Virus record (IMG/VR): IMGVR_UViG_3300049255_000544
Coordinates: 1-49,032 of that record
Length of the DNA: 49,032 nt
Direction: 5' to 3' (one strand)
From: a virus
The notes under the pieces were generated by a model. The model made no database searches. It was not told the origin of the DNA and saw only the letters and a list, made by a program, of their open reading frames with translations. The translations under genes were made by a program, and so were the position numbers. Below are positions 770-44,428 of this stretch, piece after piece (within the stretch, counting starts at the first letter, position 1; every line of letters starts with the position of its first letter).

Positions 770-901
770 GCATCGAGCGGTTCCTTCCTGGCGATCGAGC
801 CGGGCGGGTGGAACGATTGCACAATTTCGCTACCGTCAGAGCAAAAAAGTGGTTGCCGGTTGCCAGTTGCCACTGACCAAACGACGATGACTCCGCATTC
901 C

Positions 902-2260
902 ATGGCCAAGCGTATTGAGCTGTGGCCGATCGACCGCCTGATCCCCTACGCCAGGAATCCGCGCACGCATTCCGAGTCGCAGATTGCGCAGATCGCGGCC
1001 AGCATCGCCGAGTTCGGCTTCAACAACCCGGTCCTGGTGGACACCAAGGACGGCATCATTGCCGGCCATGGACGCCTGCTCGCGGCGCGGAAACTCAAGC
1101 TCAATCAGGTTCCCGTCGTGGTGCTGGATCATCTGTCCGAAACGCAGAAGCGCGCCTACATCCTGGCCGACAACCGGCTCGCGGAACTGGCGGGCTGGGA
1201 TGAGGAACTGCTTCGGGGCGAACTAGCCGAGCTGCGCGACGCCGATTTTAACCTCGATGTGATCGGCTTCGACGAGGACGAACTCGAACGATTGTTGGCT
1301 GAGGAACCAGGCGAGGGCCTCACGGAAGAGGACGCCGTTCCCGAGCCGCTCGAACAGGCCGTCTCGCGTCGCGGCGATCTTTGGATTCTCGGTGACCACC
1401 GGCTACTGTGCGGAGATTCAGCCAGCCGCGAAGATGTGGACCGCCTGGTCGAGGGCGCACCCATCGATCTGATCAACACAGATCCGCCGTACAACGTGCG
1501 CGTGGAGCCCCGCTCGAACAATGCCATCGCGGCGGGGGTGTCGTCGTTCACCAACCTTCAGCACCACCAGAGTCTCGATGTGCACCGGCACCCGTCGAAG
1601 GCCAAGGGCACGACCAAGAAGATGCGCCCGAAGGATCGCGCGCTCGCCAACGACTTCATGAAGGACGGCGATTACGACGTGCTGCTGCGCCGGTGGTTCG
1701 CGAGCCTGGCTGGCGTGCTGAAGCCCGGAGGCTCGTTCTATATCTGGGGCGGCTATGCGAATTGCGCTAACTATCCGCCGGCGCTCGCCGAATGCGAGCT
1801 CTACTTCTCGCAGGCGATCATTTGGGTCAAGGAACACCCGGTGCTCACGCGGAAGGATTTCATGGGCAATCACGAGTGGTGCTTCTATGGCTGGCGTGAG
1901 GGCGCGGCGCATTGGTTCAATCCCGAGATCAAAAACGCCACCGACGTATGGAGCGTGAAGAAGGTCAATCCGACCGCGATGGTGCATCTCACCGAGAAGC
2001 CCGTGGATCTGGCGATCCGCGCGCTTACGTATTCGTCCAGATCCGGACAAACCGTGTTGGATTTGTTCGGCGGATCGGGCAGCACATTGATCGCGTGCGA
2101 GAAGCTCGCGCGCAAGGCGCGGCTGATGGAAATCGATCCGCCGTACTGCGATGTGATCATCCGCCGATGGCAGGAGTACGCCGGCGCAACAGCCGTGCTG
2201 GATGGCGATGGACGCAGCTTTGACGAGGTCAAAGAGGAGCGTGTGCAAGTTGCAGCTTGA
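902..2260 (+). CDS. ParB-domain DNA methyltransferase (beta-class order)
   Basis: A 452-aa protein fusing an N-terminal ParB/sulfiredoxin-like domain (about residues 8-100, with GHGR at 55-58) to a DNA amino-methyltransferase. The methyltransferase has the catalytic DPPY at 194-197 and the SAM-binding DLFGGSGST motif from 387. The catalytic motif precedes the SAM motif, which is the beta-class arrangement seen in N6-adenine and N4-cytosine enzymes. Such fusions are common next to phage terminase genes and probably modify phage DNA before or during packaging, or protect it from host restriction. The frame is open back to a TTG at 860 and there is an ATG at 887. I chose 902 because homologous proteins as I know them begin near (K)RIELWPIDRL. 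The target sequence cannot be read from the gene. Confidence 0.9.
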   Translation: MAKRIELWPIDRLIPYARNPRTHSESQIAQIAASIAEFGFNNPVLVDTKDGIIAGHGRLLAARKLKLNQVPVVVLDHLSETQKRAYILADNRLAELAGWDEELLRGELAELRDADFNLDVIGFDEDELERLLAEEPGEGLTEEDAVPEPLEQAVSRRGDLWILGDHRLLCGDSASREDVDRLVEGAPIDLINTDPPYNVRVEPRSNNAIAAGVSSFTNLQHHQSLDVHRHPSKAKGTTKKMRPKDRALANDFMKDGDYDVLLRRWFASLAGVLKPGGSFYIWGGYANCANYPPALAECELYFSQAIIWVKEHPVLTRKDFMGNHEWCFYGWREGAAHWFNPEIKNATDVWSVKKVNPTAMVHLTEKPVDLAIRALTYSSRSGQTVLDLFGGSGSTLIACEKLARKARLMEIDPPYCDVIIRRWQEYAGATAVLDGDGRSFDEVKEERVQVAA

Positions 2261-21770: not shown

Positions 21771-21897
21771 GAGCCATTCGACCTCCATCGGCAGAGGAAT
21801 AGGCCTTCCCCCCGGGTGGCTCTAAATGTTGGCACCTAGTGCTCCGTCCGGCAGCTTTTGATACGCTATGTTTGCAAGGCGTTGTCGAAGGAGGGTT

Positions 21898-23469
21898 ATG
21901 GTCACCCTGCGCCGGATTCTATTTGCATCGCAGATCTTCATTGCGTTCGCGTTTGCCACAGAACCAGTGTATTTTGCTGGCACAGTCACGAACACGACGA
22001 ATGAAAAGCAACCGCAGACAGCGACCGCCGTTTTCGCGATCGATGGCGAGTCGTGTGTTGTGTACATCGCAGCACCGCTATACGGCTCAGGTGCTTGCTC
22101 TCTCGTCGGCTATGACAAAGAGAGCGGAAAGATTCAGTTGGTCTCGTATGGTCCGCTTATCACTATCAAGTGGACGGGTACCGTGAAGGACACGAGCATG
22201 AGCGGCTCCTACGAAATCGAATATCGTGGTCTACCTTCGCTTCCAGAGCGCGGTATCTTCCAATTTGTCGCCAAGGAAAAACCGGAGAAACCCCTGGCAC
22301 TTGGGGACGTGCTCGCATCGGAGGTTGTGAAATCCGGAGATACCGAGTTCGTGGTGTGGCTTGAACGAGACATGCTCTCCGTCCACCGGAAGGACGGGAC
22401 GTACGCTGGGCGTCGCGTGTTGCTCGACCAGAACATGAAGCCACTTGTGGTCATCGAGGATTATGCAAACGGCTCAACGTACCACCTTCCAGATAAGACC
22501 GAAGCTCTGCTTGAATGGGTGACAGACGGTAAGAGCGGGTACTACACGCAACCGAACGGTAACACAAAGAAGTATCTTGATCGATTCTTCCAGCCCACGG
22601 GATGGGTGAGCTTCGAGGCGGGGTCACAAACAATTTTCGCCCTCCAGAATACGGATGGCGTCGAATTGTTTGATAGCTCGCTTAAGTCCCTCGGCATCAA
22701 AAGCGGGAAGACCAACGCGGGCCGGATTTACTGGACGGCGACAAAGGACGGAATCACAGAATACCTTGACGAGTCGTTCAAGTCGCTCAACTGGTATTCC
22801 CTTGAGAGAGAAGGCCAAACATACTTCGCCCGCTTCGACCGCAAGAAGAAAGTGAAGCTGTACGACGCGAATCTCAAAGAAATTCGGCTTCCCAAGAAGG
22901 AGGGATTCTGGACGCAGTTCGCTCGTGGGTTTGCCACCGGCATGGCAGCATATGGTCAGGCTCTTCAAGCCCAGCAGGCGCAGCAAGCTGCGGCCCAGCG
23001 TACTTACGGCTACGCAAACTCTAACGCCTACCCGGCGTATCAACCATACGGTCAGACTTCACTACCTTCGACAAGCTACCAGCAGACTACATCAGTATCC
23101 CCATCGCTCAGTTTTTCAAACACGTACACTTCCACAGGCCAGTCTTATTCGACGACCACCCAGCGGCTCGGAAGCTTCACATACTCAAACACCTTCGGGT
23201 CCAACGGGTATCAGGCGTCCTCAACGACTCAGAGGCTTGGCGCATTTGATTACACGAGCGGTTTTTCAAGCAACGGCGCATTCTCGGGTAACTCGCAGCG
23301 AATCGGAAGCTTTGAATACTCTAACCTCGCAACGCCAGCCGGAAACTGGAACGGGACTAGTCAGCAGATTGGCAACTTCACGTACCATAATTTCACCGGA
23401 CCCAATGGGCAGATGCTAAACGGAACTTCACAGAGGATCGGGAACTTCATTTACACCAACATTCAGTGA
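21898..23469 (+). CDS. Secreted protein with C-terminal QRIGNFxY repeats
   Basis: A 523-aa protein. The ATG at 21898 follows AAGGAGGG and gives a clear signal peptide (RRILFASQIFIAFAFA, cleavage expected near residue 20). There is also an in-frame ATG at 21868. The body shows repeated short units of the kind DGxxEYLDESFKSLNW that may form a beta propeller-like or MORN-like fold. A Gln/Ala-rich stretch (355-370) is followed from about 420 by five repeats of 20-24 residues with the consensus (S/T)Q(R/Q)(I/L)G(S/N/A)FxY. No family is recognised. Lower third-position G+C and location between tail-tip and fibre genes mark it as cargo, perhaps a surface or exclusion factor of the lysogen. Confidence 0.7.
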   Translation: MVTLRRILFASQIFIAFAFATEPVYFAGTVTNTTNEKQPQTATAVFAIDGESCVVYIAAPLYGSGACSLVGYDKESGKIQLVSYGPLITIKWTGTVKDTSMSGSYEIEYRGLPSLPERGIFQFVAKEKPEKPLALGDVLASEVVKSGDTEFVVWLERDMLSVHRKDGTYAGRRVLLDQNMKPLVVIEDYANGSTYHLPDKTEALLEWVTDGKSGYYTQPNGNTKKYLDRFFQPTGWVSFEAGSQTIFALQNTDGVELFDSSLKSLGIKSGKTNAGRIYWTATKDGITEYLDESFKSLNWYSLEREGQTYFARFDRKKKVKLYDANLKEIRLPKKEGFWTQFARGFATGMAAYGQALQAQQAQQAAAQRTYGYANSNAYPAYQPYGQTSLPSTSYQQTTSVSPSLSFSNTYTSTGQSYSTTTQRLGSFTYSNTFGSNGYQASSTTQRLGAFDYTSGFSSNGAFSGNSQRIGSFEYSNLATPAGNWNGTSQQIGNFTYHNFTGPNGQMLNGTSQRIGNFIYTNIQ

Positions 23470-23532: not shown

Positions 23533-24249
23533 ATGACCACCGACGAATTACGTGCACTGCTAAAAGAGCGGAACGTCAATTTTTCTGAGAAGGGCGTTCA
23601 GGGTGGCACCAGATTTGACTGCAAGTCTGGTGAGATCTTCAACGTTTTCTCTACGGGGAAGATGTCGTTCCAAGGGAAGCACGATACTTCCCTCGCTCAA
23701 GAAATCAGAAGTCGGTACGAGGACGGTATACCGAATGCGGATCGGCCAAGGGAGGCAAGCGTTCTTCCGCCTGTCGCGGCTCCAGTTACTGCTCGTCCCG
23801 TATTCATCGTGTACGGGCACGATACAGCGGCACGAGACCAGCTGGAACTCATTCTTCGCCGCATGCGTGTCGATCCGATAATCCTCGGGAATCTTCCCGC
23901 TGCAGGCGACACGATTATTGAAAAGCTGGAGCGGTATCTCGGTGAACACGGGAATGTCGGCTTCGCCTGTGTGCTGCTCACACCGGACGATGAAGGTCAT
24001 AAGGCTGGGATGACTGAAGAAAAGAAGTATCGTGCTCGACAGAACGTGGTCTTGGAAATGGGCATGGTGTTGGCACGCCTCGGCCGCAAATACGTCGCCA
24101 TACTACATAAGCAGTCCGTGGAACTCCCGAGTGACATCGCAGGGTTGCTATACATTCCATTTGTTGAGCGCGTAGACGAAGTTAAGGCCCGCTTGTTCAA
24201 CGAACTCCGCGAGGCCGGCTATGACCCCGACGTAGCTTCGCTCAACTAA
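23533..24249 (+). CDS. TIR-domain protein with RNase HIII-N-like domain
   Basis: A 238-aa protein. Residues 88-225 form a TIR-like domain of the predicted nucleotide-binding/CAP12 type (FIVYGHD at 91-97, then ARQNVVLEMG, with the likely catalytic Glu175). TIR domains of this family cleave NAD+ in anti-phage signalling systems. Residues 1-60 (GTRFDCKSGEIFNVFSTGK and FQGK) resemble the TBP-fold substrate-binding domain at the N-terminus of RNase HIII, which grips RNA/DNA hybrids. So a nucleic-acid sensor joined to a NADase is plausible. Possible promoter: TTGACG at 23488 and TTACAC at 23512, 18-bp spacer, weak. The enzyme activity and the N-domain assignment are inferred. Confidence 0.8.
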   Translation: MTTDELRALLKERNVNFSEKGVQGGTRFDCKSGEIFNVFSTGKMSFQGKHDTSLAQEIRSRYEDGIPNADRPREASVLPPVAAPVTARPVFIVYGHDTAARDQLELILRRMRVDPIILGNLPAAGDTIIEKLERYLGEHGNVGFACVLLTPDDEGHKAGMTEEKKYRARQNVVLEMGMVLARLGRKYVAILHKQSVELPSDIAGLLYIPFVERVDEVKARLFNELREAGYDPDVASLN

Positions 24250-30443: not shown

Positions 30444-31757
30444 ATGATGATTGGTGGAGAGTTTCTTACAAGCAACGACAAGCCGACGCAGCGGGTGAGG
30501 TGTCCTGTGCACGGCTTCATTCGCTACTCGGCCAACGAGCGCAAGATCATTGATCATCCGGCTTTTCAGCGGCTGCGCCACATCCGGCAGTTGGCAATGA
30601 CGTATTTGGTTTACCCAGGTGCCATGCACTCGCGGTTTGAGCATTCTCTGGGCGTGATGGAACTGGCAACACAGGCTTTCGATTTATTAGCTCTGCGGTA
30701 TCCAGAGCGGCTGGAAGAGGAACTTAAGCAAGTCCCAGAACTGGGTGACAAGACGATGGCTAAGGCTCGTCAGACTGTTCGCCTCATGGCGCTTCTCCAC
30801 GACGTGGGTCACCCAGCGTTCTCCCACGCAGCCGAGGCGACGATTCCGGGTGGCGATCACGAGAAGCTTTCCATCCACATCATTGCCAATATTCTCGGCC
30901 CCGAAATCGACAAGACGTTTTTCGAAGGCGCAGCAGGCGTGCTCGTGCGACTGATGGAAAAATCGCCTGAACTCACTTTCCTTCGTGAGTTCGTCGCCAG
31001 CCAGATGGACATGGACCGCACTGATTACCTTCGTCGTGATTCCCTTCATTGCGGAGTAGACTACGGGGTCTTCGATTCGCGGCGCCTCATCGACTCGCTC
31101 ACCGTCATTGAAAATCCAGATTCCGGCCGGCTACAGCTTGCGATTCATCGCGGAGGTGAGCATACCTTCGAAGCGCTAATCCTCGCAAGATACCAGATGA
31201 ACACGCAGGTTTACTTACACCGAATTAGGAGAATTTACGATTACTACCTGACGGAGTACATGAAGCTTTGGGGTGCCGAGAATCATCGTACGTTTGACGA
31301 TGTCTTAAGGCACGATGACAGCAGCGTACTTATGGAGATTCGAAGGGACGCGGCGGCCGACAATGAACGTTCAAAATGGGCTCGGCGAATCGTTTACCGA
31401 GATCACCACCGGCGCGTTCTGGAGACAGGGGACTACGCCGATGAACAGCGCCTGCGACGAATGAGCCGGGTGCATCGCAGGCTGAAGGAGGAGTTCCCGA
31501 ATGTGGACTTCTACTTGGACGATGCGGCCCATGACATTCACAAGCTGACGATCCCAGGCGAGCAAGATCCACAGAAGGTGGAGGATCTCTACATCGTTGA
31601 GAAGGACGGTAAACTGAAGCTTTTGAGCGAAGACAGTGCGATCATTGGGAAGATCCCCAAGCGTGTTCGAACCGTGAGGATCTTCGCTGACGCAAAGGGA
31701 GAAGCATTGGAAGCAATACGAACCACAGCAAAGGCGTTGGAGGCCCAGGCAGCATGA
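30444..31757 (+). CDS. HD-domain phosphohydrolase (SAMHD1/YwfO-like)
   Basis: A 437-aa protein of the HD superfamily branch that includes B. subtilis YwfO, E. faecalis EF1143 and human SAMHD1. Metal ligands are visible as H67 (FEHSLG), H119-D120 (LLHDVGH) and D191 (DMDRTDYLRRD). FQRLRHIRQL and YPGAMHSRFEHSLG are strongly conserved in this branch. EF1143 and SAMHD1 are dNTP triphosphohydrolases; dNTP depletion is a known anti-phage tactic. The substrate here is inferred. It shares ATGA with the following YwgA/Panacea-like gene. Start is ATG 30444 (or 30447); the conserved part begins at about residue 18. A weak -10 (TATGAT at 30382) lies upstream. Lower third-position G+C than the fibre genes supports cargo. 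Confidence 0.85.
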   Translation: MMIGGEFLTSNDKPTQRVRCPVHGFIRYSANERKIIDHPAFQRLRHIRQLAMTYLVYPGAMHSRFEHSLGVMELATQAFDLLALRYPERLEEELKQVPELGDKTMAKARQTVRLMALLHDVGHPAFSHAAEATIPGGDHEKLSIHIIANILGPEIDKTFFEGAAGVLVRLMEKSPELTFLREFVASQMDMDRTDYLRRDSLHCGVDYGVFDSRRLIDSLTVIENPDSGRLQLAIHRGGEHTFEALILARYQMNTQVYLHRIRRIYDYYLTEYMKLWGAENHRTFDDVLRHDDSSVLMEIRRDAAADNERSKWARRIVYRDHHRRVLETGDYADEQRLRRMSRVHRRLKEEFPNVDFYLDDAAHDIHKLTIPGEQDPQKVEDLYIVEKDGKLKLLSEDSAIIGKIPKRVRTVRIFADAKGEALEAIRTTAKALEAQAA

Positions 31758-32329
31758 ACCGATCCAGTAATTTGGCTTACTCGGATGATCCATGCTCTGC
31801 GTTCATGGCAGCGATCGTCCGATCGTATGAACAGCACGTAGGCGGACGCCACTACCTCGGAAGGACAGCCATGCAAAAGCTCGTCTATTTCGCGAAGGCG
31901 CTGGGCGTGCCTATTCCCTGCTCGTTCGAGATTTACACATATGGCCCGTACTCGGACACCGTTACGTTCACCGTGGATTCACTGTTGGCCGATGATGTAC
32001 TCAAGGAAACGAGCAAGGACCCACAAACGTACTCGAACTACCGACTCGGCGAAAACGCCGACGAGATCTTGAATGCCTATAAGCCGCTGATCGACCCTTA
32101 CCTCGGAAAGATCGACGCGGTCGTTGAAAGCCTGGGCAGTTTCAAACCCCAGGAACTCGAGCTGATTGCGACGCTGCATTTCATTCACCACCGTTTGAAG
32201 CAGATTTGGCGCAAGGAGCCCCCAAGGGATCATGTCTTGGCTGAATTCCACCGGGTGAAGAAGGACAAGTTCACTGAGAAGGAGATCGACTCTTGGTACG
32301 ACGCCTTGAAAAGCGCGAAGCTTATCTGA
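31754..32329 (+). CDS. YwgA/Panacea-like protein paired with HD hydrolase
   Basis: A 191-aa protein. Its segment LGRTAMQKLVYFAKALGVPI at 35-54, followed by FEIYTYGPYSDTV (58-70), is the hallmark of the YwgA/DUF4065/Panacea group, whose members include antitoxins and regulators. It is encoded in ATGA overlap with the HD hydrolase. The same neighbour pair, ywfO and ywgA, is adjacent in B. subtilis, so the pairing is old. A modulator or inhibitor of the hydrolase is one reading. No enzyme motif is visible. It ends 48 bp before the convergent peptidase gene. Confidence 0.75.
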   Translation: MNRSSNLAYSDDPCSAFMAAIVRSYEQHVGGRHYLGRTAMQKLVYFAKALGVPIPCSFEIYTYGPYSDTVTFTVDSLLADDVLKETSKDPQTYSNYRLGENADEILNAYKPLIDPYLGKIDAVVESLGSFKPQELELIATLHFIHHRLKQIWRKEPPRDHVLAEFHRVKKDKFTEKEIDSWYDALKSAKLI

Positions 32330-32377: not shown

Positions 32378-33094
32378 TCAGTAGGTCCAGCGTGGCACAG
32401 CTTTCCACATCTCGCGAAGCCGACTGTCGAGATGGCGGTAGTCCGGGCAGTGCCTCGCGACGAGATCCCAGAAGCCCTTCGAGTGATTCATCTCAACGAC
32501 GTGACAGAGTTCGTGGATAATGACGTAGTCCACCTCCTCCGGCGGCAAAAAGAGCAACTTTGCGTTCAATGAGACCGACCGGTGCCGGGAGCAGCTGGCC
32601 CACCGGGTCCTGGGCCGCTTAACGAACGCTCGATGGTATTTGAGACCGGTTTTGAGGCTCAGGCTCTGGAGCCTCGGCACCAGGTACTTGCGGGTTTGGC
32701 GCATCAGCCACCGCGACAGCGCCGCCCTGCATGCGGCGGGATCGTCCGTCGCCCCGAACACCAGCAACTGCCCTTCGCTCAGTTCCCGGACGGCAACCCA
32801 TGGGGCGTCGGTTTCCTTGGCGGTAACGTGCCACACCATACTGATCGCCGGAAGTTTGATCTGGAGCGGGAGTCGCCAAGATGGCTCGGGCTCGAAGAAC
32901 TTGCGCTGAGCTTCGGCACGTTCGAGGGCGGCGCGCACCCAAGTCTTCTTCCGCTCGAGGAGGCCGGGGACTTTTTCAACGTCGTATCCTTTCGGTACAA
33001 CGACTTCGAGCCCCCGCTGAAACGTGACGCGCAGACGCACATTCCGCCCTTTCGGGCTCACTCGCACGCTGTAGCTAAACAGTGCCTCACTCAT
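32378..33094 (-). CDS. M48-type metallopeptidase (YgjP/DUF45), RM-associated
   Basis: A 238-aa protein. Key features: TRWASCS at 163-169, and the zinc motif HELCH at 194-198 followed by NHSKGFW at 203-209. This is the YgjP/WLM-like family, commonly encoded at the end of type I restriction operons; its role there is unclear. I chose the ATG at 33094 because it overlaps the end of hsdR by 8 bp; the frame is open further upstream inside hsdR but gives unrelated sequence. It should be co-translated with hsdR. Confidence 0.85.
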   Translation of the reverse strand: MSEALFSYSVRVSPKGRNVRLRVTFQRGLEVVVPKGYDVEKVPGLLERKKTWVRAALERAEAQRKFFEPEPSWRLPLQIKLPAISMVWHVTAKETDAPWVAVRELSEGQLLVFGATDDPAACRAALSRWLMRQTRKYLVPRLQSLSLKTGLKYHRAFVKRPRTRWASCSRHRSVSLNAKLLFLPPEEVDYVIIHELCHVVEMNHSKGFWDLVARHCPDYRHLDSRLREMWKAVPRWTY

Positions 33095-36000
33095 CGCTCT
33101 TTGCCCGATAGTTGGCCTTCCGCAGCAGCTTAATGCAACGGGCGACAAAGTCCTTGTCCCGCCCGTGCAGCCCCGCAGCCGGGAACTCCTTCGCCAGGAT
33201 CTTCGTGAACTCGCGGAACAGCTCGATGTCCACGTGCTCCTGCTCAGGCCAACCGGGGAACAATATTTCATCCGCCTTTTTCACGAAAGCCACGGCTATC
33301 TTCGCAGCTTCCCCTGCGGAGAGCCCGGTGGAGCGTTCCTGTGCAGCCTTAGCGATGCTCTCGGCGAGCGGCCGCTTCGACTCCTGAATCAGAGCCACGG
33401 TCTCCTTGGCGAGTTCTTCCAGCTCTTTCAATAGCGCCAACCCGGCAAGAGTCCCGTTTCGCTTGCGCTGAACGATCCGCTTCAGCCTTTCGCTCAGGGG
33501 CTGGAACTCTTCGTCCTCGCCCATGCGGATCTCCAACTCGGAGGCGAGCATCGCCTCAATGTTCAGGGCCTTCGAGTCTGGCGGCCGTTCCTTGATCTTT
33601 GTCAAGTACTCCTCGTCGAGGACGTAAGTCGGCAGATTGCGCTTGATATCCTCCACATCCACGTGCTGCCGGATTAGATCTCGGGTCTTGGCCCCGTCGC
33701 TTGGATCGGTTTCGTATTTCTGCACCGCCGGGTAGAACTCTTTGATGTAGTACATCCAGACGCGGCTGAGCCAAAGGTAGGCCGGCTCATGATCAACTAG
33801 GAACTTGTCGGGGTGCAACGTCTCCCACAAGAGACTGAGGTTTCGGTACCCGAGTTCGAACTTTTCCCGTTTCGGCTCGTTGACATTCAGCCACGCGAGA
33901 ATGGCCATGATGTTGTCCCGGTCGCCAGTTCTCGGGAAATCGGCGAACAGTTCCATCTGCCATTGCATCTCCAATCGAAACTGCTCACGCAGCCGCGTGA
34001 ATGGAAACGCGACCTCCCCCAGCTCGTTCTTGTCGAAGTTGAGGGCCTGCTCCAGTTTGTCGAATAGGCCGTAGTAGTCCAGAACCACGCCGTATTTCTT
34101 CAAGTCCGTGTAGGGCCGGTTGACGCGCGCAATCGCCTGGAGCAAGGTGTGGTCCCGGATTCCCTTGTCCAGGTACATCGTTTCGACGATCGGCGCGTCG
34201 AACCCAGTGAGCAGCATGTCGCAGACGATTACGATCTCGACATTCCTCCACCGGTTCTCTGGTTTCGCCCGTTCAGCTTCCTCATCCGGCTTGGCCTTCT
34301 TGAAGTCTTCGATCGCTTTCTTGCGCGCTGGGTCGCCTAAGTAGTTGGCCTTCACCAGATCCTTGTCCTTCTCAGGATCCTCGGAAAAAATGCACAGCGA
34401 TACCTCAGGTCCGAGCAGTTCGTCGAGGGCGTTCTTGTACAGTGCGCAAGTCTCTTTGTCGTAGCAGACCAGCATCGCTTTGAAGTGATTCGGCCGCACG
34501 CGCTCGATGAAATCCTTGGCGAGGTCCTCGGCGATCATCTGGATGCGCTTCGGGAGCTTGAGAATTACCTCGAGCTGCGCGTTTTCTCTCTTCAGCGCTT
34601 CGCGCTCGCCTTCAGGGAGATGGGCGAACTCGCGGTTGAAAACCTCATCCAGCTTCTCCCCCCATACAGCCCAATCGCTGATTCGCGGCTCGAAGTGGAC
34701 CGGGATCGTCGCCCCATCGCGGATGGCGTCGGCAATAGAGTACCGGCCGCCCGGTTGCATATAGCGTTCGACACGTTCCTGCCCGCTTTCGTCTTTGCCC
34801 AGAATGCGGCCAAACGCCATTGGCGTATTGTGGTCGTCATTCTCGATAGGCGTACCGGTGAATCCGAACAGGGAGGCCGCCGGCAGCGTTGCCCGCATCC
34901 ACTTCCCGAAGTCGCCTTCCTGAGAGCGATGAGCTTCATCAATCAACGCGATGACGTTCGGGCGAGGCACCGCAAACTTCTCATGTCCGCTGAACTTGTG
35001 CATGATGGTGACGATGATCCCCCGGTAGCCATCGCCGTCACTCAGAAGGCTGATCAGTTCCGCCTTGCTTTCAGCAACGCGGCACGCCTCCGTATTCGTG
35101 CGGATGAACTGCCCGATCATTTGATCCTGCAACTGATCGCGGTCGATGACGATGAGAATGGTCGGCTGTTGCAGCTTCGGATGGTGCCACAGTTTCTTCG
35201 CCGCGAACAGGATCGTCAGGCTTTTTCCGCTGCCTTGCGTATGCCAAACCAATCCGCGCCGCCATTCCTGCTCCCGATCGAGATCCAAAGATCTGCGGAC
35301 GATTTCGTTGGCTGCCGCGAACTGCTGATAGCGCGCAACCTTCTTCACTGGCCTGCCTTCCTCGACCTCAAAGACGATGAAGTTCCGTAGCAAGTCGAGG
35401 AGATTGCCGCGATCGAGCAGTCCGTAAACTGACCGCTTCATGCGGTCCTGTTCCGGTATGTGCGTATGCGGCGTGGGATCGCGCCACTCGTGCCATGTGT
35501 GGAACTTCGTGGCGGGAACACCATAGCGGAAGACCAACTCGTTGACCGCGCCACAGAATGCGTTGGAATAATAAAGCTGCGGCGCCTCGCGGCTGTAGCG
35601 GGCGCATTGCTTCGCTCCCTCGGTCCAGTCCACATGCCAGTCGCGGCCCGTCGTCTTGGCCTCGATATTCACGATGGGAATGCCATTGACGAATAGAAGG
35701 ATGTCCGTCCGGATGTTGTCCTTCGGACCTTCCACCCGGAACTGGTTCGTAGCCAGGTAATCGTTTCCATCGTCGTCACGGCCCGCGCTGTCGTAGTCGA
35801 TGAGGCGGATGTTCTGCTCAGGCTCATCCACAGCGAACTTCATTGTCTTCTCATTACGGAGCCAGCGAAGCCATTCCTGGTTGTCCCGCTCCGCGCGCAG
35901 CCGGGAGATAACGCGTTCGGCTCGTTCATCATCCGTGATGACACCGGGGTTCAAGGCGATGAGACGCTCTTTGAGAATTGGCAGGAGCAGTACCTCACGC

Positions 36001-36167
36001 TCGTCCACAGTGCCGTCCGCCCGCCGTGCGCGGTATTCCTTCGCGACCGCCCTCGCGTCCTCATATCGCCAGCCAAGTTCAGGCGACTGAAGCCAATCGA
36101 GCAGGGGCGTCTCGACGGTGCGACCCTCGTTAGGCAGTTCGACTGATGGCGTGATTCCCATTGACAT
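33087..36167 (-). CDS. hsdR: Type I restriction enzyme, R subunit
   Basis: A 1026-aa protein. The N-terminal nuclease domain has D155 and E169-A-K171 (PIVNIEAKT), a PD-(D/E)XK site. The helicase/translocase has Walker A TQGSGKS at 310-316 and DEAH at 410-413, then further SF2 motifs (FTGTPIE and ARVNRPYTD). Length is normal for HsdR and all key residues seem present, so it looks intact. With HsdM and HsdS it would translocate and cut unmodified DNA. The start overlaps the hsdS end by 38 bp, and its end overlaps the peptidase gene. Confidence 0.95.
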   Translation of the reverse strand: MSMGITPSVELPNEGRTVETPLLDWLQSPELGWRYEDARAVAKEYRARRADGTVDEREVLLLPILKERLIALNPGVITDDERAERVISRLRAERDNQEWLRWLRNEKTMKFAVDEPEQNIRLIDYDSAGRDDDGNDYLATNQFRVEGPKDNIRTDILLFVNGIPIVNIEAKTTGRDWHVDWTEGAKQCARYSREAPQLYYSNAFCGAVNELVFRYGVPATKFHTWHEWRDPTPHTHIPEQDRMKRSVYGLLDRGNLLDLLRNFIVFEVEEGRPVKKVARYQQFAAANEIVRRSLDLDREQEWRRGLVWHTQGSGKSLTILFAAKKLWHHPKLQQPTILIVIDRDQLQDQMIGQFIRTNTEACRVAESKAELISLLSDGDGYRGIIVTIMHKFSGHEKFAVPRPNVIALIDEAHRSQEGDFGKWMRATLPAASLFGFTGTPIENDDHNTPMAFGRILGKDESGQERVERYMQPGGRYSIADAIRDGATIPVHFEPRISDWAVWGEKLDEVFNREFAHLPEGEREALKRENAQLEVILKLPKRIQMIAEDLAKDFIERVRPNHFKAMLVCYDKETCALYKNALDELLGPEVSLCIFSEDPEKDKDLVKANYLGDPARKKAIEDFKKAKPDEEAERAKPENRWRNVEIVIVCDMLLTGFDAPIVETMYLDKGIRDHTLLQAIARVNRPYTDLKKYGVVLDYYGLFDKLEQALNFDKNELGEVAFPFTRLREQFRLEMQWQMELFADFPRTGDRDNIMAILAWLNVNEPKREKFELGYRNLSLLWETLHPDKFLVDHEPAYLWLSRVWMYYIKEFYPAVQKYETDPSDGAKTRDLIRQHVDVEDIKRNLPTYVLDEEYLTKIKERPPDSKALNIEAMLASELEIRMGEDEEFQPLSERLKRIVQRKRNGTLAGLALLKELEELAKETVALIQESKRPLAESIAKAAQERSTGLSAGEAAKIAVAFVKKADEILFPGWPEQEHVDIELFREFTKILAKEFPAAGLHGRDKDFVARCIKLLRKANYRAKSDE

Positions 36168-37464
36168 TTTGAGAAACCTTCACTCTGACTCGGCCGGTGA
36201 GCAGATTCTGGAGCAGTGACGATTTCACCCTGCGAAGCGCGGTCAACTCGCCTTCGCCTGCAGCAATCGTTGAAACCGCGGAGTCAACAAGCGTAACGAT
36301 TTCTCGTTGCTCGTCTCTTGAGGGACAGGCAAACAGCTCACGGCATATATCGCGTTTACCCATCATCCAGAGTCCGCTTCCACACTCCGCTTTTGATTGG
36401 AGGCGGTACAGGAAGGAGCGACTTTGCCAAAGGTATGGGACAAAGCGCTCCACCACTTTGTCGGGGCGGAAACGAAGTCGAATGAGTTTATCCGAGAATA
36501 TCGTATGTACGGCCGGCTCATCGGCCAACAATCCGCCCGTTGCTACATAGTTGCGGTTCCCATTCCCTCGGACGACATAAAAGTCGCCTCTCCGCGCCCG
36601 ACATTCTTCCTTTGTTTGCTCATCGACATCCACGTATGTGGCGTACACGGTTGTGCACATTCCGTCTTCGATGCACTGAACATTCAGGATTGGAGTGCCA
36701 GGTGGATCTGGACGCGATTGGGGCGAAACACCATTAAAAGGAGGACCATCGAGAACGCTACGAATGGGGCACACGTCCCACTCATCCGGAATCTCGCCAA
36801 TCTTGGTCTGCTTGAACCGCTTGTGCCGCCCGGGTATACCGCGTGTGAAGAGTTGCTGCATGAGTGCAGCCTTAAGCCGCCGCGCAGCCGTCAGCTTTGC
36901 TTCAGCACCCTCTATGAGTTGGTCAGTAGCCACCAAAATCTCAGCTATCGCAATCTGCTCAGGGCACTTTGGAAGAGCGAATCGAATGTCTCTGATGTCG
37001 CGGCGAGTTACCGAGGTGAAGGTCGTTCCGGCACCGAACCGTTCCAAGATGGGTCGGATATAGCAGAGCAAATAGTACAGGTAGTCACTATTCACCCCTT
37101 CCTTTGGCACCAGCGCCTCACAACTCTGATTGCATGTGAGCGGCACGCCCGCGATGGCTACGTTGCCGATCGTCCCACGCGTGGAGATGACCAGTGAGCC
37201 CGGTTCCAGTAGCCGGCAATTGGAGGACTCTATGGCAAGTGGAGTTATTCTTCGTTCGCTGGTCGTGGCAACACGCCTCTTGAGATTGGTCATTTCCGTG
37301 GGCGTGAGCCACGGGATCTCCCCATTCCAAAAGCGCGGCTCCGAACTATCCGGTGTGCCACCACCGACAATGTCAGCAGCATCACGCAGACGGAACTCGG
37401 CCCAACCAGGCGGGATGCCATACCGCTCAATGAAAGTGTGATGGGCGCTACGCCGGCTGGACAT
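36130..37464 (-). CDS. hsdS: Type I restriction enzyme, specificity subunit
   Basis: A 444-aa protein with two target-recognition domains separated by a conserved coiled helix. The first runs to about residue 180, ends with the FALPKCPEQIAIAEIL motif and is followed by a helical spacer (EAKLTAARRLKAALMQQLF). The second ends at ACPSRDEQREIVTLVDS with its own spacer helix (LTALRRVKSSLLQNLLTGR). The two half-sites set the split DNA target. I placed the start at 37464, overlapping hsdM by 17 bp; the longer frame upstream gives Arg-rich sequence with no homology. The DNA target cannot be read from sequence. Confidence 0.9.
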   Translation of the reverse strand: MSSRRSAHHTFIERYGIPPGWAEFRLRDAADIVGGGTPDSSEPRFWNGEIPWLTPTEMTNLKRRVATTSERRITPLAIESSNCRLLEPGSLVISTRGTIGNVAIAGVPLTCNQSCEALVPKEGVNSDYLYYLLCYIRPILERFGAGTTFTSVTRRDIRDIRFALPKCPEQIAIAEILVATDQLIEGAEAKLTAARRLKAALMQQLFTRGIPGRHKRFKQTKIGEIPDEWDVCPIRSVLDGPPFNGVSPQSRPDPPGTPILNVQCIEDGMCTTVYATYVDVDEQTKEECRARRGDFYVVRGNGNRNYVATGGLLADEPAVHTIFSDKLIRLRFRPDKVVERFVPYLWQSRSFLYRLQSKAECGSGLWMMGKRDICRELFACPSRDEQREIVTLVDSAVSTIAAGEGELTALRRVKSSLLQNLLTGRVRVKVSQNVNGNHAISRTA

Positions 37465-39421
37465 ACTTTTGAAGCAATGATTCGACGGTCTTCTTTTGGT
37501 CCTCAAAGGCTTCGGTTGCCTTCGCGAGCTCACCCAGGGCGCTCTCAATGGATATCGTTTCCTCCGGTTCAAATGTGTCGACGTACCGAGGGAGGTTCAG
37601 ATTGAATTCGTTCTCCTCGATCTCTTCCGGCTCTGCAACGACGAAGTAGCGCCGTGCCTCGACCGGATTTGCGCAAATCCGGCACAGGTCGGATGCAGCT
37701 TCGCGTGCCAGTGCAATTTCACGGTCCGCGTGCTGCCGGGCCGCTGCCCGCTTCTCCTCGGCTTCTAACTCGAGCTTCTCGAGGGCCTTCAATTCACGCT
37801 TGAGGTCCTTCAGCCGTTCGGCATTCGCTTTCTTTTCCTCGCGGAACTTCTTGCGCTCCTCCTTCCCCTCCGGTACCTCCTTTTTCGCGAACGCATCGCG
37901 CTCTTCCCACTCTTTTCTCAGGGCGGGAAGCGGAGCCAGAAATGGCTGGTACGCAGCATCGATCTCACCAAGAGCCGCATCGCGCTCGCGCTCGATGTCT
38001 GCGATCAGCTCGGCCTCATGCTTGGGAATGAGATTCCGGCACTTTTCCAAGTCGCCAAACGCTCGCCAGGGAACAAGCACTCGCATACAATCCGCCCGGC
38101 GCAGAAGGTTTTGAGGGTTGTTCGCCTGATAGTGGCGCGACGCCCAGATGAGAAGGATCTTGCCTTTGCGCTCGGACGCCTTGCGCTTGTTCAATACCAC
38201 CAGGCAACCCGGAACGTTGTTTCCATAAAACAGCTTCGAGGGCAGGACAATCACGCATTCAATATGATCTGCCTTGATGAAGCCCTCGCGGATCGTGTAT
38301 TCGGAGTCCGCCTTTTGATTGCGCCCGTCTTCTTCCTCGGTCTGCTCTGGCTGGCCGCGGAAAAGAATGCCCTGCGACATGACGATGATGGCGCGCCCAG
38401 TGGGCTTGAGCGACTTCACAACCTGCAGCAACCACGCGTAGTCGCCGTTGTCGCGCGGTGGGAGAACGGAGCCAAACCGGTCATACGGATCGCCGCCCAC
38501 GAAGTCGTCATAGCCCCACGATTCAAGGGAGAACGGCGGATTCATGACGACCCGGTCAAACTGGCGCAGGCGGCGAGTGTGGCCTTCACGGAAATAGGGT
38601 GCTCGGATACTGTCGCTGGGCGGGGCCTGCTGGAAGCTGCGGACTCCGTGGAGATACATGTTGATGCGTGCGATGTTGGCCGTCGAAGGGTTGCTCTCCT
38701 GCATGTAGAAAAACAGCCGCTCGGCCTCCTTCTTTCCGAAGTGGCGCTCGACATAGTTGCGACATTGGAGGAGCAAGCCGCCGGAGCCGGCGGCCCAGTC
38801 GCAAACATGGTGCCCTGGTTCGGATTCGACGATCTCCGACATCAGAAAGGCGACTTCCTTCGGCGTGTAGAATTCGCCGCTGGATTTGCCGGCCTTCGAC
38901 GCGAAATTGCGGATCAGGTATTCGTAGGCGTTGCCAAACAGGTCATCGGCGACGCTAGCGTGGTCCAGAGGAAGGCTGCCGAAGTGGTTGATGATCTGGA
39001 CCAGCTTGCTGCGCGGCAAACGGTCCTGGGCATTGAAGTCCACCGTGCTGTTCGCGAGGATTCCGTCAAACTTCGGCTCATTGGCCCGCTCGATGGCGCG
39101 CATGGCGTCGTTCAGCGCCTTGCCGAGCTCGCGCTCAGTGGTACGGGCTACTTTCTCCCAGATGCAGTCTTCGGGAACGACGAAGTCATGCATGCGCGGG
39201 TCACGAGCCAGGTCGGCGTCTCCGAGTTCCTTCTCGAGCGCCGCGACGTTTTCGAGGTAGACGTCGTTGATGCGCTTGTAGAAGAGGAGCGCGAAGACGT
39301 AGCCGCGGAACTCAGAGTGGTCAACGCCACCCCGTAGCATGTCCGCCGCCTTTTCCAGGAAGGCGTCCAGTTCCGCTTGGGTGAGCCGCCGCTGTGGGCG
39401 CGTCTTTACAGAATTCGCCAT
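37448..39421 (-). CDS. hsdM: Type I restriction enzyme, methyltransferase subunit
   Basis: A 657-aa N6-adenine methyltransferase of the HsdM class. The N-terminal HsdM domain is followed by GEFYTP at 182-187, the SAM motif as DWAAGSGG at 208-215 (usually DPACGSGG) and catalytic NPPF at 294-297. The C-terminal part has a long coiled coil (about 480-570, Lys/Glu/Arg-rich). Length is longer than the classic 500-530 aa because of this coil. It modifies host DNA and forms the M2S core. It lies 123 bp downstream of the MerR-like regulator and could be under its control. Confidence 0.95.
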   Translation of the reverse strand: MANSVKTRPQRRLTQAELDAFLEKAADMLRGGVDHSEFRGYVFALLFYKRINDVYLENVAALEKELGDADLARDPRMHDFVVPEDCIWEKVARTTERELGKALNDAMRAIERANEPKFDGILANSTVDFNAQDRLPRSKLVQIINHFGSLPLDHASVADDLFGNAYEYLIRNFASKAGKSSGEFYTPKEVAFLMSEIVESEPGHHVCDWAAGSGGLLLQCRNYVERHFGKKEAERLFFYMQESNPSTANIARINMYLHGVRSFQQAPPSDSIRAPYFREGHTRRLRQFDRVVMNPPFSLESWGYDDFVGGDPYDRFGSVLPPRDNGDYAWLLQVVKSLKPTGRAIIVMSQGILFRGQPEQTEEEDGRNQKADSEYTIREGFIKADHIECVIVLPSKLFYGNNVPGCLVVLNKRKASERKGKILLIWASRHYQANNPQNLLRRADCMRVLVPWRAFGDLEKCRNLIPKHEAELIADIERERDAALGEIDAAYQPFLAPLPALRKEWEERDAFAKKEVPEGKEERKKFREEKKANAERLKDLKRELKALEKLELEAEEKRAAARQHADREIALAREAASDLCRICANPVEARRYFVVAEPEEIEENEFNLNLPRYVDTFEPEETISIESALGELAKATEAFEDQKKTVESLLQKYVQPA

Positions 39422-39544: not shown

Positions 39545-40045
39545 TTAGCCGCCGCGACGCGACGAAGCTCGGGACGCCTGAGATGGTAGAGCTGTGGTGG
39601 AAGGAGGCTTCCGCTCACCAACACGAATGTCTTGCTTCATCTCATTCACGGTTCGCGCGAGGTCAAATACGAAGGCGAAGGAAGTTTGACCGGGCCTTCG
39701 CAGCGCACTCACGATCTTCTCGGGGCTGGTCGCCACCTGGACATCCGAGCCGGTGACGATCAGGTGGCAGTCTGAAAGTGGGTTTGGCAGGTTCTTTCGC
39801 GCGCGCAGGAAATCCACAACTCGACGGAGAGACTGGGTTGAAACTCCCGCCTCTCGGAGCTCACGCGCTACGCGCAACGCGAGCAAGTCCGAGAACGAGT
39901 ATCTACGTTCTGTACCGGTACCCCTCGCTTCCGCAATGCTGGGGACGATGAACTTCGTCCGCGCCCAATAGTCAATGTTGCGGAAGGATACTCCCGTGAT
40001 GCGGACTGCCTCGCCTGTGGAAAAGCTGTCCTTGATCTGAGCCAC
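39545..40045 (-). CDS. MerR-like regulator of the restriction operon
   Basis: A 166-aa protein starting at GTG 40045. Residues 9-80 are a MerR winged helix-turn-helix (STGEAVRITGVSFRNIDYWA, RRYSFSDLLALRVARELREAG). The rest is short (HLIVTGSDVQVATSPEKI), not the usual cysteine or ligand domain. It is transcribed in the same direction as hsdM. Two palindromes lie just upstream of its start (40059-40108), consistent with self-repression. It probably delays or tunes restriction-modification expression after phage entry; that role is inferred. Confidence 0.75.
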   Translation of the reverse strand: MAQIKDSFSTGEAVRITGVSFRNIDYWARTKFIVPSIAEARGTGTERRYSFSDLLALRVARELREAGVSTQSLRRVVDFLRARKNLPNPLSDCHLIVTGSDVQVATSPEKIVSALRRPGQTSFAFVFDLARTVNEMKQDIRVGERKPPSTTALPSQASRASSRRGG

Positions 40046-40348: not shown

Positions 40349-42709
40349 ATGTTGAAGAACTGTTTTGAAACAGAGGAGATGCTGGCGACACGGGCGCCGT
40401 CCGCGAACCTGGTTTTGAACTTCTCGACAGTCCAGTTCGCTGATATCGAGATCACCGTTGGAGAGCTGCCTTACGGCGCTGACGGTGAGCAGGTGCTCGA
40501 GCAGCTTCGGCGAGACCACAACGGGACGCATGTCTTCCGCCGGGAAGGTGCAGACCGCATCGTGGCCGTTTCTGTGGCCGCAAATGCGCCGCTCATTGGA
40601 GAACCGAGGACAATCCGTCCAAGGGAACACCTGGGGCTGACCGCAGCGCTGATCCGGAATGCGCTCCTAACTTACGTTTCGGGAATGGGGCGGACCGTTT
40701 TGAGCTATGAGCCAATGCGGTTTATCGCCCGTGACGATGTTCTTCACGAGTTGCAGGGGATTTCGCCTCCAGAATGGCTCTCTCTTCGGCTCCTGTACGA
40801 AGTCTCCATTCGGCCGCTCTACTTTCTGAAGAAGGAGCCGCTTGTTGCCGCCGTCGTGGATGTGCGAACCACACGCCTCATCGAGCGGACGGCGTGGGAA
40901 CTTATCGAGGACGGTTTTTCCATCGAGGGTTTCTACGTGGGCAGGCGCCTCCAGAGCGACGATGCGCGAATAGCGCCACAGTTCGAGCTACTTGGGCGCG
41001 TTACGGCGAGAGACGGCTCTCGGCTTTCCCTGGCCGATTCGCGAGATGGAATCGCGTTTGTTGAAGCTCATGAAGTATGGCCTGAAAAGCGGGCCTTCGC
41101 CGACTGCCTAGCGCACGTGTTCAAGGATCGCGCGCCCCAGGTCGCTGACCTCCTCGATCGCAAGCGGGCTGGCTTGAGGCACGGTCCTACCCGCGTCGAA
41201 CGGATCAAGAGAACCATCGGTTTTCTCGGGAAACAGCAGCACGAGATGGTTCCGGGCGTGCCCTTTACGTTCGGGCCGCTTCTTGACAGCGGGGACGCTT
41301 TGTTCCCGCCGCTTGAGCGGGCGCCGAAGCCCGTCTTTGTGTTCGATCAGACTGGTTCCAAGACAGACCTGTGGAATGACAGGGGCTTGAGCGAACACGG
41401 CCCGTACACGGCTCAGGTTTTCACGCCCAACCAACCCCGAATCGCAGTTATATGTCAGCAGTCGATGAAGGGGCAGGTGGAACAGTTCCTGCACAAGTTT
41501 GAGCAAGGCATCCTTCTGCCGCCACCGCCGGGAGACCGAGGCCGTCCAAGTAGGCGTCAAACGAACTACTTCGAAAAAGGCTTTCGACGGAAATACGCGC
41601 TACAGGGCCTCCAGTTCGAGTTCTTCCCCACAGACGGCAATTCGGTGGAAGCGTACAGGAAAGCCTGCCAGCGGGCGCTGGAGAAGCACGGCAGCGGACA
41701 CAAGTGGGATCTCGCCTTCGTTCAAATCGAAGAGTGCTTCCATGGCTTGCCTCCAAGATCCAATCCTTATTTCGCTAGCAAGGCCAGTTTCCTCACGCAT
41801 CAGATTCCGGTGCAGGAATTCCAGATCGAAAAGACGAGGAAACCCGACCGGGACCTGATCTACGTACTCAACACGATGGGCCTCGCGACATACGCGAAGC
41901 TCAACGGAATCCCGTGGCTGCTGAAGGCGAATCCGACTATCGCGCACGAATTGGTGATAGGGCTCGGATGCGCCAACGTTGGCGAGGGCCGCTTAGGAGA
42001 GCATGAGCGTTTCGTAGGCATCACGAGCGTCTTTAGCGGTGACGGCAATTACCACCTATCGAACCTCTCGAAGGCGGTATCCACGGACGAGTACCAGACA
42101 GCGCTGCTCGAAACCTTGCGAGCCGCCATTTTGAAGGTTCGGCAGGATTTAAACTGGCAACCCAAGGACCAAGTTCGCCTGGTGTTCCACGCCACGTTCA
42201 AGCGATTCAGTGCGGAAGAAGTGAAATCGATCAAGGCGGTTCTCTGCGAGCTGGGGGACTACGACGTCGAATATGCGTTCCTCCAACTGAGCGAGCAACA
42301 TCCCTTCATCCTCTTTGACAAGAATCAAGGCGGCACCTACGATCCCGAAGCTAGGGGGCATAAAGGAGCCTACGCGCCGGAGCGGGGCCGATACATTGAG
42401 CTCGGCAAGAGGGAGGTGTTGCTGTCCCTAACCGGGCCGCGGGAGGTCAAGCGTCCAGAGGACGGTACGCCGCGTCCGCTGCTGGTGAGCCTGCATCGCG
42501 ATTCCACCTTTACGGACATGACCTACCTGACCAGGCAGGTGTTCGCATTTTCGTGTCACTCCTGGCGCACGTTCCTCCCGTCGTCGGTGCCGGTGACGAT
42601 CCAATACTCGAATCTCATTGCGAGCGCACTCGGTCACCTCTCACTGCTGGATCGATGGGACCCCGACGTGATGCTGGGACGCATCGGAAAGACTCGATGG
42701 ATGCTGTGA
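40349..42709 (+). CDS. Long prokaryotic Argonaute, catalytically inactive (long-B type)
   Basis: A 786-aa protein with N-terminal, linker/PAZ-like, MID and PIWI parts. The MID 5'-phosphate pocket is intact: Y474, K478, Q489 and K517 fit the YKQK motif (SNPYFASK, IPVQ, AKLNGIPW). The PIWI tetrad is lost: the first Asp position is G540 (VIGLG), the third is T616 (FHATF) and the last is near N755 (IQYSN). So it should bind guides but not cut, as in long-B Argonautes, which act through a partner effector (SIR2, nuclease or membrane protein) in abortive infection. The downstream gene overlaps by 13 bp. Start ATG 40349 has no clear ribosome site; ATG 40379 is an alternative. Confidence 0.88.
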   Translation: MLKNCFETEEMLATRAPSANLVLNFSTVQFADIEITVGELPYGADGEQVLEQLRRDHNGTHVFRREGADRIVAVSVAANAPLIGEPRTIRPREHLGLTAALIRNALLTYVSGMGRTVLSYEPMRFIARDDVLHELQGISPPEWLSLRLLYEVSIRPLYFLKKEPLVAAVVDVRTTRLIERTAWELIEDGFSIEGFYVGRRLQSDDARIAPQFELLGRVTARDGSRLSLADSRDGIAFVEAHEVWPEKRAFADCLAHVFKDRAPQVADLLDRKRAGLRHGPTRVERIKRTIGFLGKQQHEMVPGVPFTFGPLLDSGDALFPPLERAPKPVFVFDQTGSKTDLWNDRGLSEHGPYTAQVFTPNQPRIAVICQQSMKGQVEQFLHKFEQGILLPPPPGDRGRPSRRQTNYFEKGFRRKYALQGLQFEFFPTDGNSVEAYRKACQRALEKHGSGHKWDLAFVQIEECFHGLPPRSNPYFASKASFLTHQIPVQEFQIEKTRKPDRDLIYVLNTMGLATYAKLNGIPWLLKANPTIAHELVIGLGCANVGEGRLGEHERFVGITSVFSGDGNYHLSNLSKAVSTDEYQTALLETLRAAILKVRQDLNWQPKDQVRLVFHATFKRFSAEEVKSIKAVLCELGDYDVEYAFLQLSEQHPFILFDKNQGGTYDPEARGHKGAYAPERGRYIELGKREVLLSLTGPREVKRPEDGTPRPLLVSLHRDSTFTDMTYLTRQVFAFSCHSWRTFLPSSVPVTIQYSNLIASALGHLSLLDRWDPDVMLGRIGKTRWML

Positions 42710-43701
42710 TCTCGACGACTTCGGAATTCCTGCTGTCGGACGCCCGCGCCGCGCTTCAAAGGCGCGTGACGGAACCCGAACGCCCGGAGCTGAGCAAAGC
42801 CTTTGGGGCTTGGTTGCTGGGCAGAACGGAAGCCTGTGCCGATTTCGTCTCTTTGATCAAGGCAGCCGCCGAGAGAGAGGGAGCACTTCAGGATTTTCAG
42901 ACAGTTGCCATCTTGGGATTCGGAGCCGCTGCGGGAATTCTCGGTCCTGAGCAGATGGCGGTCCTTAAGAAAGGGTTGCGTAGACAGGTCGGCCGCGAGG
43001 TCGTAATTGATGAGGTGCCGGCGGCGTTCTGTTCGGACGCCGTCGGCATTCTCGGCATCGTCCTCGGAACGAAGGCTATCGCCGACCCGGAAGTCACAAA
43101 CGAGGTTGCGAAGTGGCTTTCGAAGTTCCTGAAGAACAGTTACGAAGGAAGGTGCACGGAAGAATGGCAGCGTTGTCTCTATGCTGTGGCAGACCGCCAG
43201 ATGGGAGGCTCACTCAACCTCGCTATACCCCGGTCCCCGGCTGCGTCCGACGTGCGTCTGGCGCTTGCCGCAAAGAATGTACTTGAAGCTGGCACCGACG
43301 GACTGAGTGATCAGGATGGCGAGCGGGTAATAGCGTTGGCGCTACGTGAGCTGCCGCATGAACTGTCCTGCGACCAGGCTGCCTTGCGTCTTGCCGCTGT
43401 TGAAGCGGTCGTCGAGACAGCTGTACCAATGATCAGCGGCCAAACCACAGCGCGCCAGCCCAAGCCCGACCGTTCACTTTCTGATCGAGATACTCGCCTG
43501 CATGATGCGATTGGTAGCCAACGTTTCTCCACCATGACGAATGCCGAGATCATGAAAGACTCCAAGGTGAAGAAACTTCTGCACTCTGAAAAACTGGAAC
43601 CCGGCGGTGATGCTGCCAAACGGTGTCTGGATCGAATTAGGCACGCAAAGGGATACCTGTTGTCCCGCCAGATCGCCGAAAAACGGTCCAGCGTGAATTA
43701 A
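42697..43701 (+). CDS. Argonaute-coupled protein of unknown family (candidate effector)
   Basis: A 334-aa protein whose ATG lies 13 bp inside the Argonaute gene, after a GGAAAG ribosome site. It looks almost all-helical. Two Gly/Ala-rich hydrophobic segments stand out at about 69-83 (VAILGFGAAAGILG) and 114-128 (DAVGILGIVLGTKAI); they are short for membrane helices but could be. I see none of the motifs of known Argonaute partners: no SIR2, TIR, PD-(D/E)XK, HNH or P-loop. The C-terminal part is charged (NAEIMKDSKVKKLLHSEK). The longer frame from 42553 is a shadow of the Argonaute gene. By context it is the effector or helper of the Argonaute; its activity is unknown. Confidence 0.75.
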   Translation: MDAVISTTSEFLLSDARAALQRRVTEPERPELSKAFGAWLLGRTEACADFVSLIKAAAEREGALQDFQTVAILGFGAAAGILGPEQMAVLKKGLRRQVGREVVIDEVPAAFCSDAVGILGIVLGTKAIADPEVTNEVAKWLSKFLKNSYEGRCTEEWQRCLYAVADRQMGGSLNLAIPRSPAASDVRLALAAKNVLEAGTDGLSDQDGERVIALALRELPHELSCDQAALRLAAVEAVVETAVPMISGQTTARQPKPDRSLSDRDTRLHDAIGSQRFSTMTNAEIMKDSKVKKLLHSEKLEPGGDAAKRCLDRIRHAKGYLLSRQIAEKRSSVN

Positions 43702-44111: not shown

Positions 44112-44428
44112 CCAACGAACAACTCACAGCGTTTTTGGCTGAGCGTGTGATGGGCTGGACCGTTGGCCCGGACCGCTTTCTGACGAACGGTCGGCGGTGG
44201 ATACCGCGTTGGAGGTTTCAGCCGGCGAGGTCGCTGGAGGATGCCTTCCGTCTGCTAGACGCAGTGCAGGCAGACGAGTACACGATGGGCTCCGGACAAG
44301 GCGGGCGTTTCCTGGTGAACGTCACCATCGCGGGCCGTCTCGGCCACGCTCTTGATGAATCCAAGCCGCGCGCGATTACTCTCGCGATCGCTCGTGCGCT
44401 GGGTGTGGAGGTCGACTCGCTGCAATGA
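44108..44428 (+). CDS. Small alpha/beta phage protein (ABA-sandwich-like)
   Basis: A 106-aa protein. LAERVMGWTVGPDRFLTNGRRW at the start, then ARSLEDAFRLLDAVQ and a C-terminal helix (KPRAITLAIARALGVE), is the pattern of a small phage protein (often named ABA sandwich) found near replication genes. It overlaps both neighbours by 4 bp (GTGA and ATGA), so the three form one translation unit. Function not known. Confidence 0.7.
   Translation: MTNEQLTAFLAERVMGWTVGPDRFLTNGRRWIPRWRFQPARSLEDAFRLLDAVQADEYTMGSGQGGRFLVNVTIAGRLGHALDESKPRAITLAIARALGVEVDSLQ

Follow-up and report, generated by a model that had tools for sequence, protein, structure and literature searches.

A phage-encoded TIR protein with an RNase HIII-type N-domain: a candidate nucleic-acid sensor coupled to a predicted NADase

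Can one small protein detect foreign nucleic acid and respond by cleaving NAD+? The question is raised by a gene in a virus record of 49,032 bases, which is taken whole and referred to here as the window; the virus itself may be incomplete. The open reading frame starts with ATG at 23533, and its stop codon ends at 24249. This is the exact position given in a preliminary description, and the three motifs named there (GTRFDC, NVFSTGK, and FQGK) were all found in the 238-residue product. Based on alignment and structure prediction, the protein is a small TBP lobe and a predicted NAD+-destroying TIR domain on one chain, arranged as follows.

23533..24249, plus strand: gene for the TBP-lobe/TIR protein (238 aa; PADLOC PDC-S35, phrog_16442)
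23533..23712, plus strand: N-domain, residues 1-60, RNase HIII-type TBP lobe with a predicted helix-four strands-helix fold
23647..23676, plus strand: positions equivalent to hybrid contacts of RNase H3, namely F39 (Tyr43), T41 (Ser45), Q47 (most likely Bst Gln54), and G48 (Gly52)
23713..23796, plus strand: linker, residues 61-88, a helix end followed by predicted disorder at 70-83
23797..24246, plus strand: TIR domain, residues 89-238, with PF10137 at 90-210
24055..24057, plus strand: codon of Glu175, the catalytic glutamate predicted by alignment

An N-domain of RNase HIII type joined to a TIR domain

The window sequence alone gave no significant Pfam match ahead of the TIR domain, so the resemblance of the N-domain to RNase HIII could not be demonstrated from one sequence. 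An alignment-driven scan of genome contigs yielded at least 411 relatives from many phyla, 80 of which were kept. When a profile of 80 N-domains was compared with the PDB, the top match was RNase H3 (4py5, E=7.7e-5). Below it, at weak E-values, were 3vn5 and 2d0a (RNase HIII), archaeal TBPs, and LsoA, and unrelated chains such as DARPins were likewise matched at weak E-values. The Pfam model of the RNase HIII N-domain (PF11858, DUF3378) matched 24 of the 80 members, with a best E-value of 1.2e-5, while the RnlA and TBP models matched 6/80 and 3/80, both weakly. A genome scan with PF11858 also returned the N-domain of relative L014, the scan match and L014 being judged one gene by position.

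AlphaFold2 modeled the N-domain as helix-four strands-helix with a pLDDT of 86.6. Foldseek placed RNase H3 (4py5, 3vn5) among the top matches of this model with a probability of 0.99, and the C-terminal domain of Integrator INTS9/11 and RnlA were also near the top. All E-values exceeded 0.07, as expected for a domain of only 60 residues. Profile similarity and the predicted TBP-lobe fold together establish homology to the RNase HIII/TBP lobe at the family level, in agreement with the earlier reading of the N-domain. A SAP domain was rejected as an identity for this region, the weak Pfam hint (E 0.065-0.12) being absent across the family.

The N-terminal domain of RNase HIII shares the TBP-lobe fold and the hybrid-contact positions with the window N-domain; however, it is joined to an RNase H catalytic domain, whereas the C-terminal part of the window protein is a TIR domain. 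No RNase HIII was found above the cut-off in the 16 genomes searched. A 2020 survey of TBP lobes named RNase H3 and RnlA as the only bacterial members (PMC7221094); the TIR branch would add a third family to these.

In the structure of RNase H3 bound to a hybrid, the DNA is contacted by Tyr43 and His28, which stack on deoxyriboses, and by Ser45, at a phosphate, while 2'-OH groups are bound by Gly52 (in the Bst enzyme, the Gln54 side chain) and Glu27; the hybrid was the only ligand bound by the isolated N-domain (PMC4132731). Profile alignment to 4py5 placed Tyr43, Ser45, and Gly52 at F39, T41, and G48 of the window protein, and Bst Gln54 most likely corresponds to Q47. Among the 80 relatives, an aromatic residue is present at position 39 in 79 and Gln at position 47 in 77; position 48 is Gly in all 80, and position 41 is Ser or Thr in 46. 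The equivalents of the RNase H3 contacts are the most conserved residues of the N-domain. The Glu27/His28 region aligned poorly: relatives have Asn, His, or Tyr nearby and the window protein has Gly, so that the second DNA-stacking aromatic, His28, is not clearly retained there. As judged from this alignment, the nucleic-acid-binding face is kept, and hybrid specificity is plausible.

The remainder of the chain was described earlier as a TIR of the CAP12 type with Glu175 as its likely catalytic residue, and both points held. PF10137 (CAP12/Pycsar TIR) matched residues 90-210 (E=2e-32) with 112.2 bits against a cut-off of 24.7. Glu175 and its motif RQNVVLE are invariant in 34 family sequences, and Glu175 aligns with the glutamate of NVVFE/NVHLE in CAP12 TIR-STING and PycTIR. 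The full-length AlphaFold2 model had a pLDDT of 88, with residues 70-83 of the linker disordered; in a structure search, SfSTING was the best match, and the SPARTA TIR-APAZ structures (8ifl, 8qlp) scored lower. A match to designed pentatricopeptide proteins was set aside as a repeat artefact of the C-terminal end.

CAP12 TIR-STING (CBASS) and PycTIR (Pycsar) are thus the best structural matches and share the PF10137 TIR and the catalytic Glu motif with the window protein. Nevertheless, membership in CBASS or Pycsar was rejected: the sensor is a TBP lobe instead of a STING or cyclic-nucleotide-binding domain, there is no adjacent cyclase, and no cyclase family was found among the recurrent neighbors. 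The NCBIfam Cap12 models gave 30 of 450 bits, far under their cut-off.

Family distribution and gene neighborhoods

Relatives found by tblastn were from Escherichia phages, plus one Planctomycete plasmid, and viral scans added about 80 relatives to those from the genome contigs. Most kept genome loci carry the same N-domain, while other PF10137 proteins have only the TIR in common and differ in their N-termini. One such protein with a different N-domain is encoded on an Arthrobacter plasmid (L004:3581-6494), where another TIR gene, which overlaps one for a HIT-domain protein, lies about 1.1 kb downstream. The domain pair is present in many phyla, and it has already been catalogued. The window protein matched PADLOC PDLC05006 (PDC-S35, a single-gene phage defence candidate) over its full length, N-terminal region included (residues 1-236, E=8.3e-74), nothing found here separates the two, and in PHROGs it belongs to family 16442. 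The full-length family is present in about 1% of genomes or fewer, and phylum scans therefore yielded few extra loci. A close copy of one enterobacterial phage relative was found in 37/5,426 E. coli genomes, and E. coli prophage relatives include one in strain IAI1, which would make testing easy. In the literature covered, which included few subscription papers and is weak evidence of absence, we found no description of a TIR/TBP pair or of a PDC-S35 mechanism, and searches on DUF3378 and on TIR with RNase HI, within the same coverage, found no such family described. Relative to the catalogue entry, the domain identity, the contact residues, and a link to RNase HI are new here.

Genes around 91 loci were clustered to define neighborhoods. 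At least 20 loci lie inside or adjoin type I restriction-modification (R-M) operons, where the family gene often sits between hsdS and hsdR or follows hsdM; L192 and L194 are two additional type I R-M loci. The hsdM, hsdS, and hsdR genes were confirmed by Pfam at L045, the remaining R-M labels being from clustering. Three loci carry genes resembling DUF1156 methylases: at L022, L029, and L048, the TIR gene lies between or adjoins such a gene and a large helicase-like gene, a second defence-type context. In enterobacterial phages, the family gene is located in the replication module, adjoining DNA polymerase.

RNase HI is the immediate neighbor in 6 of about 92 loci, directly downstream on the same strand in five of them. 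The spacing is a 42-nt gap at L006, a 4-nt overlap at L008, an 18-nt gap at L023, a 1-nt overlap at L076, and a 3-nt gap at L077. At the sixth, L168, which came from a later scan by phylum, the RNase HI gene is transcribed divergently in a head-to-head arrangement, and the TIR start is uncertain, with no ATG. All six neighbors are RNase HI by profile, share 31-61% mutual identity, and have an intact Asp-Glu-Asp-Asp set, except for the fourth position at L008. In a maximum-likelihood tree, the RNase HI loci were on scattered, well-supported branches, which forces at least three changes. The window protein clustered with L006, L007, and L168 at a support of 100/99. RNase HI is present at two of these three, and the closest relative of the window protein is one of the six loci with RNase HI.

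Genomes contain about 1.6 RNase HI-type genes each, so that about 0.07 adjacent genes would be expected in 92 loci, against the six observed. The expected figure is rough, since 4,000 genes per genome are assumed and the loci are not fully independent. In several genomes, the TIR-adjacent gene is the only strong RNase HI; it may therefore serve the cell as its housekeeping enzyme too, or the assemblies may be incomplete. TIR loci without the N-domain showed no RNase HI neighbor, a weak control because they were sampled differently. Most family loci have no adjoining RNase HI, and a six-frame search found none in the window. The adjacency favors a mechanism that involves RNA/DNA hybrids or RNase HI itself, and it strengthens the hybrid-specificity reading. 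RnlA, which is counted among the TBP-lobe families (PMC7221094), offers a parallel: RNase HI associates with its N-repeated domain, and both stimulates and represses it (PMC5308261).

Proposed mechanism and alternatives

We regard the domain architecture, family membership, wide spread, defence-type neighborhood, and recurrent RNase HI adjacency as settled by computation, as are the fold and the conservation of contact and catalytic residues. The best reading of the protein is a nucleic-acid sensor coupled to a predicted NADase, and of the family, a widespread putative bacterial immune family. For the ligand, clustering, NAD+ cleavage, lysogen defence, and the part of RNase HI, we infer the following course. 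The TBP lobe would bind a nucleic-acid duplex arising from replication or transcription of a foreign element; the likeliest is an RNA/DNA hybrid, be it an R-loop, a primer, or a replication intermediate. Several protein molecules would gather on the ligand, and clustering of the TIR domains would complete the active site, so that NAD+ would be cleaved and the cell would stop before the invader spreads. In some relatives, the adjacent RNase HI would keep the TIR inactive, either through clearance of hybrids or through binding to the TBP lobe, the latter modeled on its binding to the N-repeated domain of RnlA. The window's temperate phage would carry the gene as accessory cargo that protects the lysogen against other phages.

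The hybrid sensor is proposed because of the homology of the N-domain to that of RNase HIII and the near-invariant contact positions, and the predicted NADase because of the CAP12-type TIR with its invariant Glu. Two precedents also favor the proposal. RnlA/LsoA (RNase LS) are anti-phage toxins that have a TBP-lobe domain and in whose control RNase HI takes part (PMC5308261, PMC7221094, PMC3710099). Their effector, however, is a HEPN RNase, with an RnlB antitoxin and an unlinked host RNase HI, whereas the window effector is a TIR, and no RnlB-like gene was recognized among the recurrent family neighbors. In SPARTA (short pAgo/TIR-APAZ), a guide-RNA/target-DNA hybrid switches on a TIR NADase (PMC10474274). 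There, the hybrid is guided and sequence-specific and is recognized through Argonaute, whereas the window protein has a guideless 60-residue domain and no match to APAZ. The pAgo of the window's phage, in contrast to the short pAgo of SPARTA, is long, lies 16 kb from the TIR gene, and has its own effector.

As a whole, a one-chain immune protein with a hybrid-binding TBP lobe and a clustering-activated NADase TIR is the account toward which we lean, and an RNA/DNA hybrid would be a somewhat probable ligand. Counted against it are the absence of RNase HI at most family loci and in the window, and the lack of a clear His28 equivalent in the window protein. That TBP lobes bind dsDNA as well counts against a proposal limited to hybrids.

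It is possible, if rather unlikely, that the TBP lobe senses something other than a hybrid, such as the ends of dsDNA, branched replication DNA, or an intermediate of translocation or restriction by type I R-M, and that the TIR serves as a back-up, firing if restriction fails. TBP itself binds dsDNA, such an effector has a model in PrrC, an anticodon nuclease that guards a type I R-M system, and the loci in or adjoining type I R-M operons are far more numerous than those with RNase HI. However, many members, including that of the window, have no adjacent R-M genes; the closest match in both fold and profile is the hybrid-specific RNase H3 domain, and the RNase HI neighbors point to hybrids.

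Those same neighbors could also indicate that the N-domain is a protein-binding module that docks RNase HI or a phage protein, with titration or inhibition of the partner releasing the TIR, as for RnlA, RNase HI, and RnlB. The effect of RNase HI on RnlA through the N-repeated domain (PMC5308261) and the position of the INTS9/11 C-terminal domains, a protein-protein complex, near the top of the Foldseek matches agree with docking. We consider it improbable, as the most conserved residues of the domain are the equivalents of nucleic-acid contacts in RNase H3 and most loci lack a partner gene.

Within the hybrid-sensing NADase reading, we suggest only tentatively that operonic RNase HI is a dedicated off-switch in some lineages. 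In these, the two genes would form one system: if RNase HI were lost or overloaded during an infection, the NADase would be released and triggered by hybrids. Bacteria would then treat R-loops or hybrids formed in replication as danger signals, with built-in silencing having evolved. Few single-gene bacterial TIR proteins have a known ligand, and the sequence evidence here names a candidate ligand class. The TBP-lobe/TIR pair is a good lead within the known TIR sensor-effector type.

Position of the gene in the phage

The host element carries terminase gpA, a lambda-type portal, capsid E, tail genes, and a tyrosine integrase, and is therefore taken to be a temperate tailed phage. Its other relevant features are listed below.

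860-2260, plus strand: ParB-like domain fused to a DNA methyltransferase, adjoining the terminase genes
21868..23469, plus strand: gene for a 533-aa protein upstream of the TIR gene, with a signal-peptide-like start and C-terminal repeats
30444-32329, plus strand: HD-domain gene overlapping a DarG-like gene (DarG antitoxin model, E=2.1e-16)
33087-39421, minus strand: type I R-M (HsdR, HsdS, HsdM) in the cargo region
39545-40045: MerR-type regulator gene, adjoining the R-M genes
40349-43701, plus strand: long pAgo with an overlapping helical-REase partner (Aga_Helical-REase)
44425-46689, plus strand: replication protein with the helix-bundle domain of the primase-polymerase of NrS-1, a deep-sea phage

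Most structural genes have a GC3 of 0.79-0.87, against 0.59 for the TIR gene and 0.63 for the secreted-protein gene that precedes it; with these low values, the pair looks as if it had been inserted into the tail operon. A search of the insert for sigma-70-like promoters found none. The location beside a secreted repeat protein in a prophage tail operon had been called unusual. This holds only in part, the family being widespread and often found in prophages and R-M operons. The 533-aa protein gene, with C-terminal repeats of type QRLGSFTYSNTFGSNG, adjoins the TIR gene but is not conserved with the family. The protein had no relatives in the collections searched and is absent from other family loci; it was therefore rejected as a partner or antitoxin and is probably a co-inserted passenger.

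The operon context of the type I R-M loci and the accessory insert in a phage that itself carries R-M and pAgo genes favor an immune role. A role of the TIR gene in the phage's own lytic cycle or lysis timing, suggested by its place inside the tail operon on the same strand and by the replication-module relatives in enterobacterial phages, where lytic-cycle expression is possible, is very improbable, because its GC3 marks it as an insert, the R-M genes and the pAgo-effector pair follow the pattern of lysogen-defence cargo, and bacterial relatives are located in R-M operons.

The phage pAgo is close to EcAgo (PDB 23wq, E=1.7e-144) and is classified as pAgo_II by PADLOC. No DarT toxin was recognized with the DarG-like gene at 30444-32329; together with the HD-domain gene, it forms a possible two-gene system.
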